Shown piece after piece: positions 46,577 to 58,175 of a DNA stretch of 64,000 nt. Origin of the DNA: Alternaria dauci (Eukaryota > Ascomycota > Dothideomycetes > Pleosporales > Pleosporaceae). A program made the translations under genes and the position numbers. Each line of letters opens with the position of its first letter. Within the stretch, counting starts at the first letter, position 1. The stretch spans positions 3,100,001-3,164,000 of the forward strand of contig NC_091275.1 of assembly GCF_042100115.1 (NCBI RefSeq), written 5' to 3'. The notes beneath the pieces were generated by a model. The model had not been told where the DNA came from, did not search any database, and saw nothing but the letters and a program-made list of their open reading frames with translations.

Positions 46577-49500
46577 TATTACACGGGGTTAGGCGATACT
46601 TCTCTAAACTCAGTCCGTACTAAGGCGAGGTAGACTAAAGTAGTAGTCCGTAAGGTAGTATATAGAATAATTAGGTAGAAAAGAGTTATTATTATAACTA
46701 AGAGATAAATAATACTAATTCTATAAATAATAGAATAACTAGTTAATAATCTATATAAGAGATAAACTATTTAAGTTAACTATAATAAGTATAATAATAA
46801 GATCTAATACATTCTTATACCTATTACTATAGGTCCTATCCTCCTTACCCTCCCTTCTAAGAGGGAGGCCTAGGAGGGCTATAACCTCCTAATCCTTACT
46901 AGCCTCCTAAAGGCTAGGTCTTAGCGGGATACTATTCCTTTTACGTAATCTAGGCCCCGCCCTAGATCTACTTTTATCTATTATATCCGCCTAATAGTCT
47001 TCCTTTATATAACCTATATAAAAGGGAAGTAATTCCTTATTACCTTATAATATTACCCCCCCTCTTAGGCGTATTATCTTAATACCCTAGATTATTATTT
47101 TCCTACGCCTAGTCTAGTAGCAGTAGTAGAGGTATAGCTACTCTAGTAGTGTTATATCCTCTCTTTCCTCCTTTCCTTACTTTCCCTAACTATACCTAAG
47201 GTTTAGACTTCTTAACGCGTCTGTGCCTAGAACTTAACTTAATAGCGCTAGGCTTATGCTAACTATATCTACTAATAAGGGAACGAGATAACGTTTTATT
47301 ATAAGCGCTGTAAGGAGAAGAATCTCCGTTATTTTATAGATACTGCGTCTAGGCAGTGTACTAGTTATATTTTAGTAAAAGCTAAGTGTAGTTTATTTAT
47401 AACTAAGGAAGAGTAGGAGAAGGTTAAGGCTAAAAAGTGTAAGAAGCGCTTAGTACTTCTTTAAGCTAAGGCTAAGGTTACTTAACTTTAGCTAGAAGTA
47501 GTAGAGACTAAGGCATAAGAGTAAGTATTTACTAATTAAGATTACGCTATTTTAAGTCTTTAGGATTACGCGAAAGAGTAAGCTAAGGGGAACTCTACCC
47601 TTAGTATAGACTTTTAGCTAACTAAACTATTACTACCTAGACTATTAACTAACTTAGGCTAGTTATAGGGTAACACTTCTTTTAATCCTTTTTCTAAATT
47701 CCTTTCTTCCCTTAAGGATCTAGTCCTCTCTTCTCTAGGTATTTCTAATAGTACTTACATACCTATAACTTATAGTTTATTAAATTTTCCTTTAGTTCCT
47801 AAGTATTCTAGCTCTCTAGCTATCCTAGCCACTTAACTAAGTATTTCTACTAATAACTAATTTTCTATAGGTCCTTAATTTCCTTAACCTTATACTCGTC
47901 GTCTTTAAGCTCTATATTAGTAGCTAGCTTAGTATCTAGAGGTACTCTTTCTAGGAGTTTCTTATAAAAGACAGGGTAGATATGTATACCTAGTAGGAGT
48001 TAGAGTTTATAGTTTACTTTACCTATTTCCTCTAGAACCTTAAATAGTCCTACTTAGAGGTTATCTAGTTTCTTACTTAGTTACTTAGTTTTTAAGTTCT
48101 GTTATAATAGGAAAACTTTATCCCCCTTCTTAAAGGTTAGTCCCTTAATCCTTTACTTATTAGCCGCCTTAGCTGTTATAAGGTTCCTATAAGCTATATT
48201 CTTACTTAATTTATTATATAGCTCTCGCATTAAGTAGGCTTTATTATCTGCGCCTACTATAATACTTTCTATATCCTTTAGATCTTAATAAGCGACTAGC
48301 TTATATCTGTAGTTCGCGTAGTATAGTAAGTACTTTATCGTTATAGACCTAGTGCTGTTATAGGCTAATTATACTGTTAGTAAGAGTTTAACCTAGTTAT
48401 CTTATAGCTTATTAGTGTATATCCTTAGATACTATTCTAGTATCTAGTTCGTTCTTTCTATCTAGCTATCTATTTTAGGGTAGAAGCTAGTTAATAGCTT
48501 CTTCTTTACACCTAACTTTACTAGGAATATATCCTAATACTTAGAAGTAAATAGTTTATTATAGTTAGTAATAAACTCTTTAGGTATCCTATACTCTAAT
48601 ATTAGTGCCTTACTAACCTTATATATATATTCTTCTACTATAATAGTTTCTTCTATAGGTATAAACTTTACTCCTTTCGTATATTAGTATATAATAACTA
48701 GGGTTATATCGCACAATCTTCTAGATCCTAGTTCTAACAATTTTAGGAGCTTTACTATAAAGTCTATTATTACGCTACTCTATAGTCTTATTAGTAGTAG
48801 TAAGGGTTATAATAGACTATAAGGCTTATATCTCTTAGGCTTATTCTAGTAATAAGCTAAATAGTTACCTAGGATATCTTATACCTTTACTTATAAGCGT
48901 AGTATTATAAACACCTTTAATAGTCGCCTAACTATTTCTTCTAGTAATATATATCTATACTTTAGGGACTTATATAGTTCCTTAATAAGACTTAATCTTA
49001 TATATAGAGGTATATATATTTAATTACCTTAAATTATATCTTAGTACTCTCGCTTATCTTGTAATAGTTTGTTAGAGCTGTTCTCGTTAGGCTCGAACTA
49101 CTAGCTAGCCGCTCTCTACTACTACTACTACTAAAGTGTTTCTACCTACTTAGCCACCTTAGCTATCTTAGCTAGTTCTAGCTAGTTATAATATAGTATA
49201 CTATCTAGTATCTTTCTAAATATAGCGTTATATAGTTCTTTATAACTCTCTTTACATAAGTCGAATCTCCTACTTAGAGCATCCGCTACTCTATTAAGCG
49301 TTCTAGCGCGGTAAGTTATCTTAAAGTTAAACTAAGCTAATATCTTAGCCTATTAGACTTATCGTCTATTAAGTGTCTTTGTTATTATAAAACCTACCAA
49401 GTTCTAGTAATTAGTAAAAACCTTAATCTAGTATAGTAGTCCTAGTAAATAGACTTCCTACTATTTAAAGGAATTAACTACTCCTAGTAGCTCCTTATCG

Positions 49501-50998
49501 TAAACATTATAATTAAGTTCTACTCTAGAGAACTTCCTTAAGTAGTAGAACACTAGTCTCTACTTCTTATCTAGGTACTACTATAATAATATAGCTCTAA
49601 GTACGTAATCTAACGTATTAGTCTTAACTCGCGTTTCTCGTTTTAGGTTATATATTTCTAGTATAGGTGCCTTAAGGAATATCTACTTAATTCGATTAAA
49701 AGCCTCCTAATATTCCTCGTTCTATTTAAAACTAATTTCCTTCTTTATAATCTTAGAGAGGGGTATCGTAATCTTTAAGTAATCCTTAATAAACTTCTAG
49801 TAGTAGTTAGCAAATCCTAGGAAGGATTGCATATCCTTGACTATTTTGGGCGTTAGCCACTCCTATACAGCCGCTATCTTCTTTAGGTTTATCTTTACTC
49901 CCTCTATAGATATAATAAAGCCTAGGTATTCTGTTTCCTTTATATAGAATTTACACTTCCCTAGCTATAGGTACAGCTTATATTCCTTAAGCTTCCTTAG
50001 CACTTTCTTAATATACTCTATATATTCTTCTAGCATTCCGCTAGTATATACTAGTACATCGTTAATATACGCTATAACGAAGATTCTAAGGTATTTATAG
50101 AGCGCGTTATTAATAACTAACTAAAACGTTACTAGGGCATTTATTAACCTAAAAGGTATTACTATATACTTAAACAGTCTATATTTTATCTTAAACGCTG
50201 TTCTCTATTCGTGTCCTTCCTTAATCCTAATTTAGTAAAATCCTTCCTAAACATTAAACTTTGTAAACTACTTAGCTCCCTAGAGTTAATCTATAAGCTC
50301 CGTAATTAGTAGTAAGGGATATTAGTTTTTCTAAGTAACGCTGTTTAACCTATAGAAGTTAACATATAGTTGCTACTTCCTGTTAGGCTTCTTTATAAAT
50401 AAGATAGGTAAGGCTATTAGGCCTAATCCTAGTTAGATAAATCCCTTCTTTAGATTCTTCTAGATGTACTCCCTTAGCTTAGTATTATGCTTAGGCGATA
50501 TAGGATACATAGGTCCTAGGCTTAACTTTACCCCTTTATCTAGGATAATCTTATAATCCTAATCCTAATAGTCTACTAAATCTATAGCTTTATTTTCCTT
50601 AAAGAGTTCTCTAAACTTATTAGTTTAATACTCTTTTAGTATCTCTAATAGTAAGGGTCCTTCCTTTATAGTTATAACTCGTCTTATCTATATAACTCCT
50701 ACTCTTTAAGGGTCCTTCTTATAGATTCTTATAATCTTATAAGGTAAGATCTTACCGAACCTCCTATCCTAAGTTAAGCTCTAGTCCTTTAGGCTTACTC
50801 TTTAGCGTACTCTAGTAACCTTATATATAAGTTCTCTTCTAAGTATTATCTTTATTTACTAGTTAATAGTAGGGTTATAAGTATCTAGCTAGTTATAACT
50901 AATTAATATATTTAGTCCTCTTAGCTCTATTATATTAATATTTATTTAGTACTCTATACTAGCTATTTATAACTTTATTAATTCGGTTTCTATCTATA
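46577..50998 (-). mobile_element. Older RIP-saturated copy of the Ty3/gypsy element, left part
   Basis: Coincides base for base with the younger element after C-to-T and G-to-A changes. It begins with a 476-bp LTR (46577-47052; first bases TATTACACGGGG) and includes degraded counterparts of the antisense ORF (about 47199 onward), integrase, RT and protease. It stops at the insertion point of the younger copy, a site equivalent to 55416-55420 of that copy. Stops saturate all frames. No target duplication for this older insertion is recognisable (TTAGT left, TATAG right). Confidence 0.92.
50994..50998. repeat. Target site duplication, left copy (CTATA)
   Basis: The five bases directly before the left LTR; identical to 58171-58175 after the right LTR. 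Confidence 0.9.
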
Positions 50999-51474
50999 TG
51001 TTACACGGGGTTAGGCTATACTTCTCTAGGCTCGGTCCGTACTAAGGCGAGGTAGACTAAAGCGGTAGTCCGTGAGGTATCGTATAGAATAATCAGGTGG
51101 AAAAGAGTTATCGTTGTAACCAAAGGATAAACAATACCAATTCTATAAACGATAGAATAACTAGTTGACAATCTGTGTAAGAGATAAACTATTTGAGTTA
51201 ACTACAACAAGTGTAATAATAAGATCTAACACATTCTTATACCCCTTACCTTAGGTCCTGTCCTCCTTACCCTCCCTTCTAAGAGGGAGGCCTAGGAGGG
51301 CCGTGGCCTCCTAATCCTTACTGGCCTCCTAGAGGCTAGGTCTTGGCGGGATGCTATTCCTTTCACGTGATCTGGGCCCCGCCCTAGATCTACTTTCGTC
51401 TAACGTGTCCACCTAATAGTCTTCCTTCATACGACCTGTATGAAAGGGAAGCAATTCCTTGTTACCTTGTAACA
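50999..51474 (-). repeat. Downstream (3') LTR of the younger element
   Basis: 476 bp. Differs from its partner at roughly two dozen sites, nearly all transitions in which this copy has T or A where the partner has C or G, mostly in CpA/TpG context. Confidence 0.95.
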
Positions 51475-51477
51475 TTA

Positions 51478-51489
51478 CCCCCTCTCTTA
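51478..51489 (-). other. Polypurine tract
   Basis: Read on minus, AAGAGAGGGGG stands three bases before the 3' LTR, the expected plus-strand primer site of LTR elements. Confidence 0.7.
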
Positions 51490-51613
51490 GGCGTATCGTC
51501 TCGATACCCTGGATTATCGTTTTCCCGCGCCTAGTCCGGCGGCGGTGGTGGAGGTATAGCTACTCCGGTGGTGTCGTATCCTCTCTTTCCTCTTTTCCTC
51601 ACTTTCCCTGACT

Positions 51614-52258
51614 ATGCCTAAGGTTCAGACTTCTCGACGCGTCCGTACCCAGAACTTGACTTAACAGCGCCAGGCTCGTGCTGACCGTATCCGCCAACAA
51701 GGGAACGAGATGACCTTTCGTTGCAAGCGGTGTGAGGAGAAGAATCTTCGTTGTTTCGTGGACACTGCCTCTGGGTAGTGTGCGGGCTGTATTTTGGTGA
51801 AAGCTGAGTGTAGCTTATTTGTGACTGAGGAAGAGTGGGAGAAGGTTGAGGCTGAAAAGCGCGAGAAGCGCTTGGCGCTTCTTCGAGCTGAGGCCGAGGT
51901 CGCTCAACTTCGGCTGGAAGTGGCAGAGACTGAGGCGCGAGAGCGAGCATTCGCTGATCGAGATCACGCTATTTTGAGTCTTCAGGATCGCGCGAAAGAG
52001 CAAGCCGAGGGGAACTCTGCCCCTGGTACGGACTTTCAACCAACTGAACTATCGCTACCCGGACTGTCGACTGACTTGGGCTGGTTGCAGGATGACGCTT
52101 CTTTCGATCTTTTTTCTGAATTCTTTTCTTCCCTTGAGGACCCGGTCCTCCCTTCTCTGGGTGTTTCCGATGGTACTCACGTACCTGTGACTTGCAGTTC
52201 GTCAAATTTTCTTTTGGTTCCCAAGTGTTCTGGCTCTCTGGCCATCCTAGCCACTTGA
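51614..52258 (+). CDS. Antisense Cys-rich/coiled-coil accessory ORF of the retrotransposon (interrupted by two stops)
   Basis: On the strand opposite to pol, one reading frame runs 214 codons from an ATG at 51614, interrupted by TAA (51662-51664) and TAG (51776-51778). It reads MPKVQTSRRVRTQNLT, a basic segment, then FRCKRCEEKNLRCF, CAGCILVKAECSLFV (CxxC...C...CxxC...C, zinc-finger-like), then a heptad-like helix (EKRLALLRAEAEVAQLRL) and an acidic/aromatic tail (FDLFSEFFSSLEDPVL). It overlaps the 3' end of pol tail-to-tail for 290 bp. The degraded older copy has CAG at the place of the TAG, so that stop is a C-to-T change; the TAA occurs in both copies. A shorter start at ATG 51710 avoids only the first stop. 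Possibly a nucleic-acid-binding or dimerising factor; function unknown. Confidence 0.6.
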
Positions 52259-55200
52259 CCAAGTATTTCCACTGACGACCGATTTTCCGCAGGTCCCTGA
52301 TTTCTTCGACCTCGTACTCATCGTCTTCGAGCTCTATGTCGGTAGCTAGCTCGGCATCTGGAGGTGCTCTTTCCAGGAGTTTCTTGTGAAAGACAGGGTG
52401 GATGCGCATGCCTGGTGGGAGTTGGAGTTTGTAGTTTACGTTACCCATTTCCTCTAGAACCTCGAATGGTCCTATTCGGAGGTTGTCCAGTTTCTTGCTT
52501 GGTCGCTTAGTTTTCAAGTTCTGACGTGACAGGAAAACTTTGTCCCCCTTCTTAAAGGTTGGTCCCTCAATCCTTTGCTTATTAGCCGCCTTGGCTGTCG
52601 TGAGGTTCCTATGAGCTATGTTCTTGCTCAATTCTTCGTGCAGTCCTCGCATCAAGCGGGCTTTGTCGTCTGCACCTACTGCGATACTCTCTATATCTTT
52701 TGGATCTCGATGAGCAACCGGCTCATATCCGTAATTCGCGTAGTGTGGTGAGTACTTAGTCGTCGCAGACCTAGTACTATTGTAGGCCAATTGTGCTGTC
52801 GGCAAGAGTTCAACCTAATTGTCTTGCAGCTTGTTGGCGTACATCCTCAGATACTGTTCCAGTGTCTGGTTCGTTCGTTCCGTCTGGCCATCTGTTTCGG
52901 GGTGGAAGCTAGTCGATAGTTTCTTCTTCACACCCAGCTTTGCCAGGAATGTGTTCCAATACTTGGAAGTGAACAGTTTATCACGATCGGTGATGAATTC
53001 TTCAGGTATCCTATGTTCTGACATAAGTGCCTTGCTGACCTCATACGCGCATTCTTCTGCCGTAATGGTTTCTTCCGTGGGCACAAACTTTGCTCCTTTC
53101 GTGTGACGACACACGATGACTAGGACTGTGTCGCATAATCTTCCGGATCCTGGTTCTAACGACTTCGGGAGCTTCACTATGAAGTCCATTGTTACGCTGC
53201 TCCATGGTCTCGTTGGTGGCGGTAAGGGTTGTAACAGGCCATAGGGCTTATGTCTCTTGGGTTTGTTCTGATGACAAGCCAAACAGTTGCCTAGGACGTC
53301 CTGCACCTTCGCTCGCAAGCGTGGTATCGCAAACACCTTTGATAGTCGCCTGACCATTTCTTCTAGCGATGCATGTCCATACTCTGGGGACTCATGCAGT
53401 TCCTTGATGAGACTCGATCTCATGTGTGGGGGTACATATGTTCGATCGCTTCGAATCATATCTCAGTACTCTCGCTCGTCTTGTAACAGTTCGTCGGAGC
53501 CGTTCTCGTCAGGCTCGAACTGCCAGCTGGCCGCTCTCTGCTGCCACTGCTGCTGAAGTGTTTCTACCCGCTCGGCCACCTTAGCTATCTTAGCTAGTTC
53601 CGGCTGGTTGTAACGTAGTGTGCCATCAGGCATCTTCTTGAACATGGCGTCATGTGGTTCCTTATGATTTTCCTCGCGTAAGTCGGATCTCCTGCTTAAA
53701 GCATCCGCAGCTCCGTTGAGCGTTCCAGCGCGGTGAGTTATCTTGAAGTCGAACTGAGCTAGCATCTCAGCCCATCGGACTTGTCGTCGGTTGAGTTTCT
53801 TCGTTGTCATGAAACCTGCCAAGTTCTGGTGATCGGTAAAAACCTCGATCTGGTGTGGTAGTCCTAGCAAATAGACTTCCCACTGTTCAAAGGCATCGAC
53901 TACTCCTAGTAGCTCCTTATCGTGAACGTCGTAGTTTAGTTCTGCTCCAGAGAACTTTCTTGAGTGGTAGAACACTGGTCTCCACTTTTTGTCTGGGCAC
54001 TGCTGCGACAATACAGCTCCGAGTGCATAATCTGACGCGTCGGTCTCGACTCGCGTCTCTCGCTTTGGGTCGTACATCTCTAGTACTGGTGCCTCGAGGA
54101 ATATCTGCTTGATTCGATCAAAAGCCTCCTGATGTTCCTCGTTCCATTTGAAACCAACTTCCTTCTTCGTGATCTCGGAGAGAGGTGTTGTGATCTTTGA
54201 GTAATCCTTGATGAACTTCCGGTAGTAGTTGGCAAATCCTAGGAAGGATTGCACGTCCTTGACTGTTTTGGGCGTTGGCCATTCCTGTACAGCCGCTGTC
54301 TTCTTTGGGTTCATCTTCACCCCCTCTGTGGATATTATGAAGCCTAGGTATTCCGTTTCCTTCGTGTGAAATTCGCACTTCCCCGGCTGCAGGTACAGCT
54401 TGTATTCCTTAAGCTTCCTGAGCACTTTCTTGACATGTTCCACATGTTCTTCTAGCGTCCCGCTAGAGTATACCAAAACATCGTCGATGTACGCTGTGAC
54501 GAAGATTCCAAGGTACTCGTGAAGAGCGTTGTTGATGACTGACTGAAACGTTGCCGGGGCATTCGTTAACCCAAAAGGCATTACTGTGTACTCGAACAGT
54601 CCATATTTCGTTTTGAACGCTGTCATCCATTCGTGTCCTTCCTTGATCCTGATTCGGTGAAATCCTTCCCGAACGTCGAACTTCGTAAACCACTTGGCTC
54701 CCTGGAGTCGATCCATGAGCTCGGTTATTAGTGGTAAGGGATATCGGTTCTTCCGAGTAACGCTGTTCAACCTTCGGAAGTCGACACATAGTCGCCACTT
54801 CCCGTTAGGCTTCTTTACGAACAAGATGGGTGAGGCCATTGGGCCTGATCCCGGTCGGATAAATCCCTTCTTCAGATTCTTCTAGATGTACTCCCTTAGC
54901 TCAGCATCGTGCTCGGGCGATATGGGATACATAGGTCCTGGGCTTAACTTTGCCCCTTCATCTAGGATGATCTCGTGATCCCAATCCTGATGGCCTGCCA
55001 AGTCCGTGGCTTCGTTTTCCTCAAAGAGTTCTCTAAACTCGTCGGTCTGATACTCTCTTGGTATCTCTAGTGGTAAGGGTCCTTCCTTCGTGGTCGCGAC
55101 TCGTCTTATCCATATGACTCCTACTCTTTGAGGGTCCTTCTCATAGATTCTCATGATCTTATGAGGCGAGATCTTGCCGAACCTCCCGTCCTGGGTTGAG

Positions 55201-55694
55201 CTCTGGTCCTTCGGGCTCACTCTTTGGCGTACTCTAGCAACCTTGTGCACAGGTTCTCTTCTGAGTATCGTCTTCATTCGCCAGTCGATGGCGGGGTTAT
55301 GGGCATCTAGCCAGTCATAACCAATCAACATGTCTAGTCCTCCTAGTTCCATTATGTCGATATTCATTTGGCACTCTATGCCAGCTATCCGTAGCTTTGT
55401 TGATTCGGTTTCCATCCGTATCATGCCGTTTCCATATTCCATGGGTTTCTCGTCGGCTAACAGTACCGATACTGGGTTCTTCTTAACCCGGTAGGGTAGT
55501 TCGTGTTTCTCCACCACTCTGGGTGAGATCATCGTTCGTGCGGCCCCGCTATCTACGAGCGCCTCGATGTTTCGTCCCTGTACAGATACGGTCGTGAGCA
55601 GCTGCTTCACCCGACCATCGGTATCCTGCACCTTCCTAAGGGTCGTTTTAGGACTGCCTTCACCAGCGTGACCCTGTCCCTGGCGGCATCCTAG
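51969..55694 (-). CDS. pol: pol polyprotein: protease, reverse transcriptase, RNase H, integrase, chromodomain; three in-frame stops
   Basis: Single frame from the gag-pol junction down to 51969, broken by TAG (54882-54884), TGA (53463-53465) and TAG (52815-52817). In order: aspartic protease ALVDSGAARTMIS (about 55560), reverse transcriptase with CVDFRRLNSVT, LTNAPATFQ and YIDDVLVYS (about 54480), RNase H entry ETDASDYALGAVLSQQ, integrase zinc region (HESPEYGHASLEEM...CLACHQNK) and DDE core (TMDFIVKLP, FITDRDKLF, HPETDGQTERTNQ), then KYLVKWLGWPESQNTWEP, a chromodomain that targets insertion to heterochromatin in related elements. Translation is expected by -1 frameshift from gag. The stops make this copy a pseudogene in practice; a short basic tail follows the chromodomain. 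Confidence 0.93.
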
Positions 55695-55702
55695 TTTTTT
55701 GA
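55691..55702 (-). promoter_or_regulatory. -1 ribosomal frameshift site at the gag-pol junction
   Basis: Read on minus the end of gag is TCA AAA AAC TAG, containing the slippery heptamer A AAA AAC in the required phase (last two codons AAA AAC) just before the stop. A -1 slip enters the frame that runs into pol without a stop up to the protease. The degraded copy near 58450 keeps the same six-T run. Confidence 0.75.
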
Positions 55703-57631
55703 CTGCTTACCTTTCCTGTACTTAGGAAAGTAGCCTGTGTCATTCTTTGAGCTGTAGTGCGTCAAGCACCTGTCGTCGTAACAGAAGCTCCAATGAATGT
55801 TCTGGTGAGGTATCTCCTCCCTGGTGATCCTCTTCCTTGGTTGAGCCTTCTTGGCCTCGTGAATCTCACAATCTGCTACCTCGCAGATGTTTGATGATAG
55901 GGTGCGATGGTAATAGTCATCCACCTTGTGTGCTTCCTTGAGCTGCTTGCGATGGAAGTCACACCCGTTCCTGCATTGCGTCCATAGAAGTCTGTAGTGG
56001 ATCTCCACTTTCTCTGGTTCGTGTAGATGGCAGATGTCTGCTAGACATTCGTCTGCCCAGAGGTTCAGGTGGCAGCACCGGTCCTGGTCTGTCCTGCAAT
56101 CCTCCTTATCTTGCTTATGGAACTCGCAATTTATCTTACAGTCATACCAACACAAATCCTTGTGATCCTTGGTATCTTCTACTTCGTGGGCTTCTTGGTC
56201 CTCGACCTCAACCATTGGATCATCGAAGTAGGGTTGTTGGTGTATCGCCTGATACCCAATTTCTTCGGCATTCGGGCCGGTAATCATGATTCGTTCGCGA
56301 ACCGTGCATTCGTCGGCGTAGTGTGTCTTGTTACCACATACCCAACACTGGTTGTTGGCTAATCGTTCCATCACGATGGTGCCTTTGACCTTCCAGTCAG
56401 TCTTCTTTGGCTGGCCCATGGTGAGAACTTCGTTGTCCGGTTTAACTCTTGGGACGATTTCGTAGCCTTCCTTATCCTCCAAGCGTGCCTCTTCGTATAG
56501 GTCTAAGTCGCTTAGGTTGTCATCCGGCTCTATCCCGGCCGGGTAAGGCGTGCCTTGTCTGATCATCCGGATCTTGACAGCTGCCTGTTTAACTTGTTCT
56601 TCTTCGCAATCCCTAGCGAAGTGTCCTGTCTTCCCGCATCGGAGACATGCTTTGTTGTCGTAACGCCGCTGGCGTTCTTCCTTGGAGAGACCGTCGTGTC
56701 TTTTACCTCCTCGGGTTTTCTTGTCTTTGGCCTTCTCTTGTACCTTGCCGGTCATGATGGCGTCGCCATCCCTGTCGAATCTACCACGCTGTTTCTTCAT
56801 GTTGGGCAGGTTGGGTCGGAAGTATTTCTTCTGATCGTTTCGTTCCCACAACCTGTTGTCGATACGCGTGGCTAGCTCGATCAGAGCGTGTAGCGTCCCG
56901 GGCTTATCGTGGTGTACAAGGCCGTCCTTGACATTCTCTTTGAGGCCTGCTTCGAATACCGTTCGAAGTGCCGCATCATCCCAATCGATCCGTGCTTGTA
57001 GTTGCTTAAATTCCGCCGTGTATGCCGATACTGACGAGGTCTGCCTCAGGCGAGTGATCTTCTTCTCTGCCTGGTTCTGAGCGTCTACTTCTCCGAAGAT
57101 GCGTCCCATCTCTTGCTTAAACTCTGTCCAACTTGCGAATAAGGTACGGGTTCCTTCTTTGGTGCCCATGTGTTCTGCATCCAGCAGATAATCGTCCACA
57201 TAGGGTTGCATCCAATTGGAAGCCTTATCCTTCATGTATGTACTGGCCATGAGGATCTTTTCCTGGTCGTTGGGTACCTCGTTGTACTCGCAGTACAGGT
57301 CGATGTTGGTGAGAAATACTCGTAGCTTTTCTCGTTCTCCACCGTATTTCTCTGGTGACGCTATCTTGGGTTTCTTTGTAGCAACGGGTCGTTCGTTAGG
57401 GGTCATCATCAGTTGCCCTGCAAGCTGATTGATCATTGCCTGCATCTCAGCAATCTGCTGAGCCTGCGTGGTTGTGTGTTGCCTAAGATTCCTGAGCTCG
57501 GTGACGTTAGGGTTCTCTCCCTCGTCATCGGATGCTTCCAGCATCTCATCATTTTCTGGGGTAGGGCGTGCTGGCGTCGAGGGTCCCTGACCCTGAGCCC
57601 TGTTGTTCTGCGCGTTTCCCTGATGAGCCAT
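55691..57631 (-). CDS. gag: gag polyprotein with two CCHC-type zinc knuckles
   Basis: 646 residues, intact. The structural protein forming virus-like particles and packaging RNA. N-terminal disordered part, helical region with MQAMINQLAGQL, then a capsid-like Retrotrans_gag core (ASNWMQPYVDDYL, FASWTEFKQEMGRIFGEVD). Basic linker, then the first knuckle CLRCGKTGHFARDC (CX2CX4HX4C) and a second, CWVCGNKTHYADEC. The C-terminus has unusual Cys/His pairs (CKINCEFHKQDKEDC, CRNGCDFHRKQ, CEVADCEIHEAK) beyond the ordinary knuckles. Ends KGKQSKN and stop; the heptamer A AAA AAC directly precedes the stop and leads to the pol frame. Start MAHQGNAQNNRAQ follows the upstream LTR after a 63-bp leader. Confidence 0.93.
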   Translation of the reverse strand: MAHQGNAQNNRAQGQGPSTPARPTPENDEMLEASDDEGENPNVTELRNLRQHTTTQAQQIAEMQAMINQLAGQLMMTPNERPVATKKPKIASPEKYGGEREKLRVFLTNIDLYCEYNEVPNDQEKILMASTYMKDKASNWMQPYVDDYLLDAEHMGTKEGTRTLFASWTEFKQEMGRIFGEVDAQNQAEKKITRLRQTSSVSAYTAEFKQLQARIDWDDAALRTVFEAGLKENVKDGLVHHDKPGTLHALIELATRIDNRLWERNDQKKYFRPNLPNMKKQRGRFDRDGDAIMTGKVQEKAKDKKTRGGKRHDGLSKEERQRRYDNKACLRCGKTGHFARDCEEEQVKQAAVKIRMIRQGTPYPAGIEPDDNLSDLDLYEEARLEDKEGYEIVPRVKPDNEVLTMGQPKKTDWKVKGTIVMERLANNQCWVCGNKTHYADECTVRERIMITGPNAEEIGYQAIHQQPYFDDPMVEVEDQEAHEVEDTKDHKDLCWYDCKINCEFHKQDKEDCRTDQDRCCHLNLWADECLADICHLHEPEKVEIHYRLLWTQCRNGCDFHRKQLKEAHKVDDYYHRTLSSNICEVADCEIHEAKKAQPRKRITREEIPHQNIHWSFCYDDRCLTHYSSKNDTGYFPKYRKGKQSKN

Positions 57632-57694
57632 TGTTGAATCTTAATCGGGCTGTCCTGTTGGTTAAACGTCCACTGATATCCAAGGTGGTCAAAG

Positions 57695-58170
57695 TGTTAC
57701 ACGGGGTTAGGCTATACTTCTCTAGGCTCGGTCCGTACTAAGGCGAGGTAGACTAAAGCGGTAGTCCGTGAGGTATCGTATGGAATGATCAGGTGGAAAA
57801 GAGTTATCGTTGTAACCAAAGGATAAACAATACCAATTCTATAAACGATAGAATAACTAGTTGACAATCTGTGTAAGAGATGAACTATTTGAGTTAACCA
57901 CAACGAGTGTAATAATGAGATCCAACACATTCTTATACCCATTGCCATAGGTCCTGTCCTCCTTACCCTCCCTTCCAAGAGGGAGGCCTAGGAGGGCCGT
58001 GACCTCCCAATCCTCACTGGCCTCCCAGAGGCCAGGTCTTGGCGGGATGCCATTCCTTTCACGTGATCTGGGCCCCGCCCTAGATCCACTTTCGTCCATC
58101 GTGTCCGCCCGATGGTCTTCCTTCATGCGACCTGCATGAAAGGGAAGCAATTCCTTGTTACCTTGTAACA
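57695..58170 (-). repeat. Upstream (5') LTR of the younger element
   Basis: 476 bp, starts TGTTACACGGGG and ends TTGTAACA on plus. Less RIP-altered than its partner. The sequence directly inside it, toward gag, does not begin with TGG, so a standard tRNA primer site is not evident. Confidence 0.95.
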
Positions 58171-58175
58171 CTATA
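58171..58175. repeat. Target site duplication, right copy (CTATA)
   Basis: Identical to 50994-50998 on the other side of the younger element. Confidence 0.9.

Follow-up and report, generated by a model that had tools for sequence, protein, structure and literature searches.

In Botrytis, a fungal Gypsy element reportedly carries an extra gene, brtn (2011, Virology 417:248), near its 3' end and on the strand opposite gag-pol. The passages of PMC7264820, PMC8365987 and PMC4227169 that deal with Boty-like elements give their gag-pol a chromodomain, and background on the brtn-type antisense gene is contained in passages of PMC8365987, PMC4227169 and PMC5987419. The plant Gypsy elements Grande, RIRE2, Retand and PvRetro13 have conserved antisense open reading frames (aORFs) between pol and the 3' LTR; antisense genes at Gypsy 3' ends are known in this way from plants and Botrytis, with no known function according to section 5 of PMC7264820.

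We analyzed such a gene in Alternaria dauci, in a window of 64,000 nucleotides (the whole stretch of DNA under study). Our preferred reading, with a probability of roughly 0.6, is that a Gypsy chromovirus of the Pleosporales carries it as a conserved accessory gene for a dimeric Zn2Cys6 factor, which most likely acts on the element's own 3' cassette.

An antisense gene at the 3' end of a Gypsy chromovirus

The element in the window had protease, reverse transcriptase, RNase H, integrase and chromodomain in the order of Gypsy chromoviruses, together with LTRs and a target duplication (Table 1). The Pfam scan of its pol gave RVT_1, RT_RNaseH, Integrase_H2C2, aspartyl protease and Chromo above cut-off and the integrase core rve below it, and BLAST gave 94.4% identity over 479 positions between its 5' and 3' LTRs. 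The initial annotation had described a frame opposite gag-pol with a cysteine cluster, a helix and an acidic aromatic tail, overlapping the pol end tail-to-tail. All of these parts were present, and the window pol frame stopped within the antisense frame. The stops of the window antisense frame were codons 17 and 55. They had been ascribed to RIP on the ground that an older copy in the window lacks them; this was true of one stop, but at the other the older copy was stopped too. The older copy (47192-47834) was a second copy of this antisense gene, heavily struck by RIP and with many further stops, and its pol lay at about 49044-50414.

Table 1. Positions in the window of the element, the antisense gene and the parts of both.
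Feature	Position	Strand	Basis
Ty3/Gypsy chromovirus element	50999..58170	gag-pol on -	LTRs, ends, target duplication, Pfam
5-bp target duplication CTATA	50994-50998 and 58171-58175		read in sequence
3' LTR, TGTTACA...TGTAACA	50999..51474	-	BLAST against 5' LTR; ends read in sequence
R-U5-like part of 3' LTR	about 50999-51212	-	split inferred from divergence step
U3 part of 3' LTR	about 51213-51474	-	split inferred from divergence step
Exchange cassette: U3, polypurine tract, spacer and antisense N-terminal module	51213..51991, approximate		transversion density
Polypurine tract adjoining 3' LTR	51478..51487	-	by eye; inside transversion-free block
Palindrome GTATCG-TCT-CGATAC, GTATCGTCTCGATAC, candidate regulatory site between polypurine tract and antisense start codon	51493..51507	.	
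Antisense gene, 214 codons, two in-frame stops in window copy	51614..52258	+	ORF list, intact genomic copies
Six-Cys Zn2Cys6-like cluster, codons 37-66, Cx2Cx6Cx8Cx2Cx6C	51722..51811	+	spacing, Pfam, fold
Predicted long coiled-coil helix, codons 72-134, heptad-varying length among relatives	51827..52015	+	model, distances
Acidic, aromatic, mostly disordered tail overlapping pol end, codons 135-214	52016..52255	+	model, composition
Protease, reverse transcriptase, RNase H, integrase and chromodomain frames, stop-split in window copy	51969..55631	-	frames and Pfam
gag frame, 646 codons, open in window copy	55691..57631	-	named by position and CCHC-like motif, by eye
5' LTR, same element	57695..58170	-	BLAST; ends read in sequence

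Intact homologues, which the initial annotation had made a test of its proposal, were found in the same genome. Among 90 scored matches, 22 were full-length and free of stops, and 20 of these had at least 98% identity; since just the best candidates were scored, the counts of 90 and 22 are lower bounds. The proposed location at the Gypsy 3' end held as well: of the 83 own-genome matches with E ≤ 3.1e-6 (7 weaker rows left out), 71 lay tail-to-tail with a pol match within 2.5 kb, which is the brtn-type position, antisense and between pol and the 3' LTR of a Gypsy element. An antisense gene accompanied 72 of 93 pol matches in the genome, including all 61 best-scoring ones, and the 21 without it among the matches listed were diverged, RIP-struck or partial. 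The antisense gene is a regular part of the element. In one copy (L059) the frame was open, yet a cysteine of the cluster was lost.

Coding constraint on the antisense frame

Three types of 3' cassette, A (L002), B (L059) and C (L061 and L065, two of six aligned C copies), were compared. RIP produces transitions, and therefore the dN/dS ratios were computed from transversions only; codons stopped in one or both copies did not enter the count, which leaves RIP-struck codons under-represented in these ratios. The initial annotation had staked the gene on a ratio away from 1 outside the overlap. In codons 1-118, the half outside conserved pol, the ratio of the antisense frame was 0.25 for A-B, 0.20 for both A-C pairs and 0.09 for B-C, while the pol frame over the same bases gave 1.42, 1.52, 2.03 and 3.04. 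The pairs of A with L063 and with L069 had zero transversions over these codons. Transversions by antisense codon position numbered 19/12/33, 15/8/29 and 10/8/32 (chi-square P = 0.005, 0.001 and 2e-5), with the excess at the third position, and those in the A-B spacer were even over the three positions (6/7/7). When all six frames over the codon 1-118 stretch were compared, the antisense frame was lowest in all three repeated comparisons; the second-lowest frame, whose third positions coincide with those of the antisense frame, gave 0.31-0.56, and the other four gave 0.89-2.97. Frames laid over U3 and spacer gave 0.37-1.84. In the overlap with the pol end the antisense ratio was 0.34-0.51, from just 5-7 changes, too few for a firm ratio.

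Indels in the antisense N-terminal half were 3 and 21 bases long, and those in LTR and spacer were 1, 2, 3, 4, 5 and 12, a list in which the first gap of some rows is merely the edge of the slice. Since copy A has an open pol frame over this half as well, in-frame indels alone do not distinguish the antisense frame from it. In an intact copy, pol was open across the whole antisense gene (51618-51968, - strand), giving a long, unconstrained, Pro/Ser-rich C-terminal tail. This extension was considered as a conserved product in its own right and rejected, with a ratio of 1.4-3.0 and a peptide that differs between types.

The open pol of the intact copy could be taken to mean that the antisense frame is a chance frame opened by pol codon make-up. 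However, it was the pol extension that was unconstrained (1.4-3.0) and the antisense frame that was constrained, and relatives of the latter occur in several genera; a chance frame is ruled out by this frame-specific constraint. The frame, with the lowest dN/dS and relatives in other genera, exceeds chance, and the antisense gene is almost certainly real.

Relatives in other genera and the putative zinc cluster

The supposition in the initial annotation that similar proteins exist in other ascomycetes was borne out by protein searches. Three overlapping searches gave 165, 192 and 191 relatives at E ≤ 0.001, of which the best 120 in each case were inspected, the sets being largely identical. 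The genera named among the matches listed were Bipolaris, Exserohilum, Pyrenophora, Alternaria, Stemphylium, Sporormia and Ophiobolus, and many rows were metagenome proteins. Sporormia and Ophiobolus belong to the Pleosporales by taxonomy look-up, and we take the other five to be Pleosporales too, which makes seven named genera of that order. Several relatives had been named 'Zn(2)-C6 fungal-type domain' automatically and one 'GAL4 domain'. The best 120 matches listed of each search held no Botrytis protein, and no DNA relatives were found in viral_contigs or genome_contigs.

Zn2Cys6 clusters (PF00172) have the spacing CX2CX6CX5-12CX2CX6-8C. The spacing Cx2Cx6Cx8Cx2Cx6C was exact in 122 of 132 proteins, including P0001, which falls within the PF00172 pattern; by this measure the cysteine cluster has the spacing of a Gal4-type Zn2Cys6 cluster, which the initial annotation had not pointed out. 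The 10 misses were 3 pieces in which the cluster was wholly or mostly absent (P0066, P0067 and P0089) and 7 proteins with a cysteine replaced. At E ≤ 1, Pfam Zn_clus matched 40 of 46 proteins (best 1.7e-4). Scanned singly in 20 relatives, it passed the gathering score in 1, fell below it in 16 and was unmatched at E ≤ 0.5 in 3; against the gathering score of 21 bits, P0117 had 22 and P0001 had 12. An NCBIfam match to Cas12k in 12 of 46 proteins, up to 6e-5, was surely spurious. It showed that weak profile matches on this protein can mislead, and the case for Zn_clus therefore rests on the agreement of several tests.

Two AlphaFold models (pLDDT 68 and 75) predicted an N-terminal helix, two short cluster helices, a helix of 63-65 residues and a loose tail. 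In Foldseek searches of the PDB, 11 of the 13 chains matched by the first model were Zn2Cys6 factors (HAP1, GAL4), as were 11 of the 12 matched by the second (PUT3, HAP1, Pho7, AlcR, GAL4), with several chains for each factor and no match at E ≤ 0.001. A PDB sequence search gave two unrelated weak matches, and a profile search of the PDB gave none. The host genome has 141 PF00172 matches; seven weak matches of the antisense protein in it (E 0.017-1.2) included 4 that coincided with genes found independently by PF00172. Six weak host matches were fetched, and 5 had a complete six-Cys cluster while the sixth had part of one. Comparison with five host zinc clusters by hhalign gave E 8.7e-6 (probability 83) and E 2.7e-5 (probability 74), values that are partly circular because these clusters had been picked as matches. 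Pfam, Foldseek and the host-genome search thus appear to agree on fungal Zn2Cys6 factors, although most of the single scores were weak. We consider it quite probable that the protein is a zinc-cluster regulator, in which the cluster would bind zinc and DNA.

The loop between Cys 2 and Cys 3 was atypical. K43 and R46 were at least 90% conserved, E41/E42 were common and the position after K43 was variable. Gal4 presumably has other residues in place of the two acidic ones, which make the canonical CGG contact doubtful.

The predicted coiled coil and the acidic tail

The coiled-coil helix was predicted to span 63 residues in one of the AlphaFold models. The distance from Cys 4 to a conserved Arg-Asp was 60, 67, 74 or 81 residues (60+7k) in 125 of 130 proteins measured, with 5 other values; in 16 of 146 it was unmeasurable, and the proteins share ancestry, hence are not independent events. 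Judged by these distances, the length of the predicted coiled coil varies by whole heptads. In 92 of 101 proteins the tail had a net charge of -5 or lower and at least 8 W/F/Y/L in a 40-residue window, a count that takes the best window per tail, without a shuffled control. Such a tail looks like an activation domain, but its acidity alone is no proof of activation.

These features bear on two other explanations. The antisense transcript itself could matter, through double-stranded RNA or transcriptional interference, with the frame as a by-product; its position over pol could yield double-stranded RNA, and retrotransposon small RNAs are reported in Botrytis in passages of PMC8365987. Purifying selection within the frame, conservation of the six cysteines and heptad-stepped length all speak against this. 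By itself such a reading is very improbable, since constraint at the codon level refutes most of it; RNA may have a role in addition. The product could also be a zinc coiled-coil protein with no role in transcription: it might help to assemble RNA or particles, direct the integration complex or interfere with silencing, its likeness to Gal4 being an inherited scaffold. The atypical loop, the long predicted coiled coil and the weak single-protein Pfam scores would suit such a protein. Against them stand the acidic disordered tail, the matches in the host genome that land on zinc-cluster genes, and the linkage of the cluster with U3 described below, and we regard this explanation as rather improbable.

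Exchange of U3 together with the N-terminal module

Transversions were dense at reference positions 1099-1878 between A and C and 1137-1869 between A and B, corresponding to about 51213-51991 in the window, and few lay outside. A and C differed by 3 transversions in 1500 pol bases, by 52 in 355 bases of the antisense N-terminal half and by tens in U3. In gag, the A copy L079 had 0 transversions in 1941 bases against one C copy (L074) and 3 in 1906 against another (L073). Synonymous transversion divergence was 0.62-1.01 in the N-terminal half and 0.004-0.044 in pol, more than tenfold apart in each pair, and therefore faster protein evolution alone cannot explain the divergence of the N-terminal half. 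Type B (L059/L072) had near-identical pol but strongly diverged gag (127/1591), which indicates a more complex history of B with mosaicism beyond the 3' cassette.

The 5' LTR of a C-type element was 92.9% identical to its own 3' LTR and 73.7% to the A LTR, which suggests that the exchanged elements have transposed. In the R-U5 part, 6 transversions were peculiar to the own 3' LTR of the A reference in comparison with other copies, A-like ones included; the two LTRs of the reference element were just 95.2% alike, which marks its 3' LTR as unusual. In this element (L002/L075), an otherwise near-identical A element, the 5' LTR was 99.8% identical to the window 5' LTR, against 95.4% for the 3' LTR, a pattern that would fit a change or exchange of the 3' LTR once the element had inserted.

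From these divergence patterns, the promoter (U3) and the DNA-binding module appear to travel together as one block. A single template switch close to the RNA's 3' end would suffice for such an exchange. However, U3 adjoins the gene, and one such switch would move the two without any functional link. The linkage to U3 was seen in the A. dauci genome, other genera being represented by proteins alone. At protein level in other taxa, 9 of 4077 pairs had N-terminal identity below 62% with C-terminal identity of at least 88%, and 8 had N-terminal identity of at least 88% with C-terminal identity below 50%, at thresholds of our own choosing; N- and C-terminal identity across the pairs were still correlated (Spearman 0.47).

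Candidate sites in U3 and spacer

Within the cassette, the zinc-cluster core (38 bases) and the polypurine tract with the palindrome GTATCGTCTCGATAC (36 bases, 51478-51513) formed the longest blocks without a transversion among the three types. Next came 26 bases at the second stretch with cysteines, 24 around the start codon and 23 at the tip of the LTR. The palindrome was exact in 10 of 21 loci, among which two elements occur twice (L002/L060 and L008/L062), and the other 11 differed by transitions only. GATA-factor sites have the pattern TATC...GATA. The palindrome may be an operator, and equally a host GATA-factor site or a replication signal beside the polypurine tract. No CGG/CCG arrangement common to all three U3/spacer types was found; A and C shared one CGG-N1-CCG, in the R-U5 part, and RIP may have removed some CGG/CCG sites. 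At 51364-51385 in U3, CACGTG and GCCCCGC blocks, seen by eye, were common to the diverged U3 types barring transitions and are candidate host-factor sites.

Discussion

Computation gave a conserved coding gene, its architecture and an exchange of U3 together with the N-terminal module. A short promoter region between the 3' LTR and pol would drive expression of the gene, on the strand opposite gag-pol. The product would be a dimeric Gal4-type factor that contacts DNA through a basic N-terminal arm and the zinc cluster, pairs through a coiled coil and activates rather than represses through an acidic aromatic tail. It would act on the 3' cassette of the element (U3 and spacer), raising transcription of the element, of itself or of both. 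The architecture and the U3 linkage make a regulatory role likely, and we lean towards the element's own cassette as the target, including the LTR.

A Zn2Cys6-type factor could instead restrain the element. It would bind the cassette and block sense transcription for the control of copy number or superinfection, and would change hands along with its target, as phage immunity regions do. The joint exchange of the DNA-binding module and the U3 with its target would be expected of such a factor, and the gene reads towards the 3' end of pol. The tail, in contrast, resembles an activation domain in 92 of 101 proteins, and the 20 stop-free antisense matches at 98% identity or more, together with many stop-free pol matches, indicate that spread has not been halted outright. 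We consider restraint unlikely. More speculatively, and less likely than not, a self-encoded Gal4-type factor may be traded with its target U3 as a cassette in the manner of a temperate phage immunity region. The type of cassette would then determine response or exclusion among elements, and the factor may also influence host genes in the neighbourhood of LTRs.

One antisense gene at a Gypsy 3' end now has a concrete, testable molecular reading as a zinc-cluster regulator, and element types with common gag-pol but different U3 and DNA-binding module provide a natural experiment. If the factor does act on its own LTR, the retrotransposon carries its own promoter-specific switch, and a route for the capture and spread of host regulators would be possible.

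The titles and abstract openings covered by a literature search held no retrotransposon-encoded Zn2Cys6 factor and no U3-linked exchange. A term search of a paper on C. heterostrophus elements (PMC4112212), which mentions gag and pol frames, did not find 'antisense' or 'zinc', and passages of a Rhynchosporium paper (PMC5118889) are unrelated. Botrytis brtn and the Alternaria gene share their antisense location at the 3' end of chromodomain-bearing fungal Gypsy elements, but the passages on brtn contain no zinc-cluster reading, and the two are likened by position, not by sequence. The plant Gypsy aORFs, which are conserved and have the same position and orientation, occur in another host kingdom and are likewise compared by position. 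HBZ of HTLV-1 is an antisense bZIP protein. Like the proposed factor, it regulates transcription as a dimer and is read from the side of the 3' LTR, but its fold and origin differ, and the comparison is one of analogy only. Zn2Cys6 factors usually have a middle regulatory domain, for which the antisense protein has no room; the latter also differs from them in being encoded by a retrotransposon, in its acidic first loop and in falling mostly under the Pfam gathering score. With Gal4, HAP1 and PUT3 (PF00172) it has in common the six-Cys spacing and a predicted two-helix cluster followed by a coiled coil and an acidic tail.
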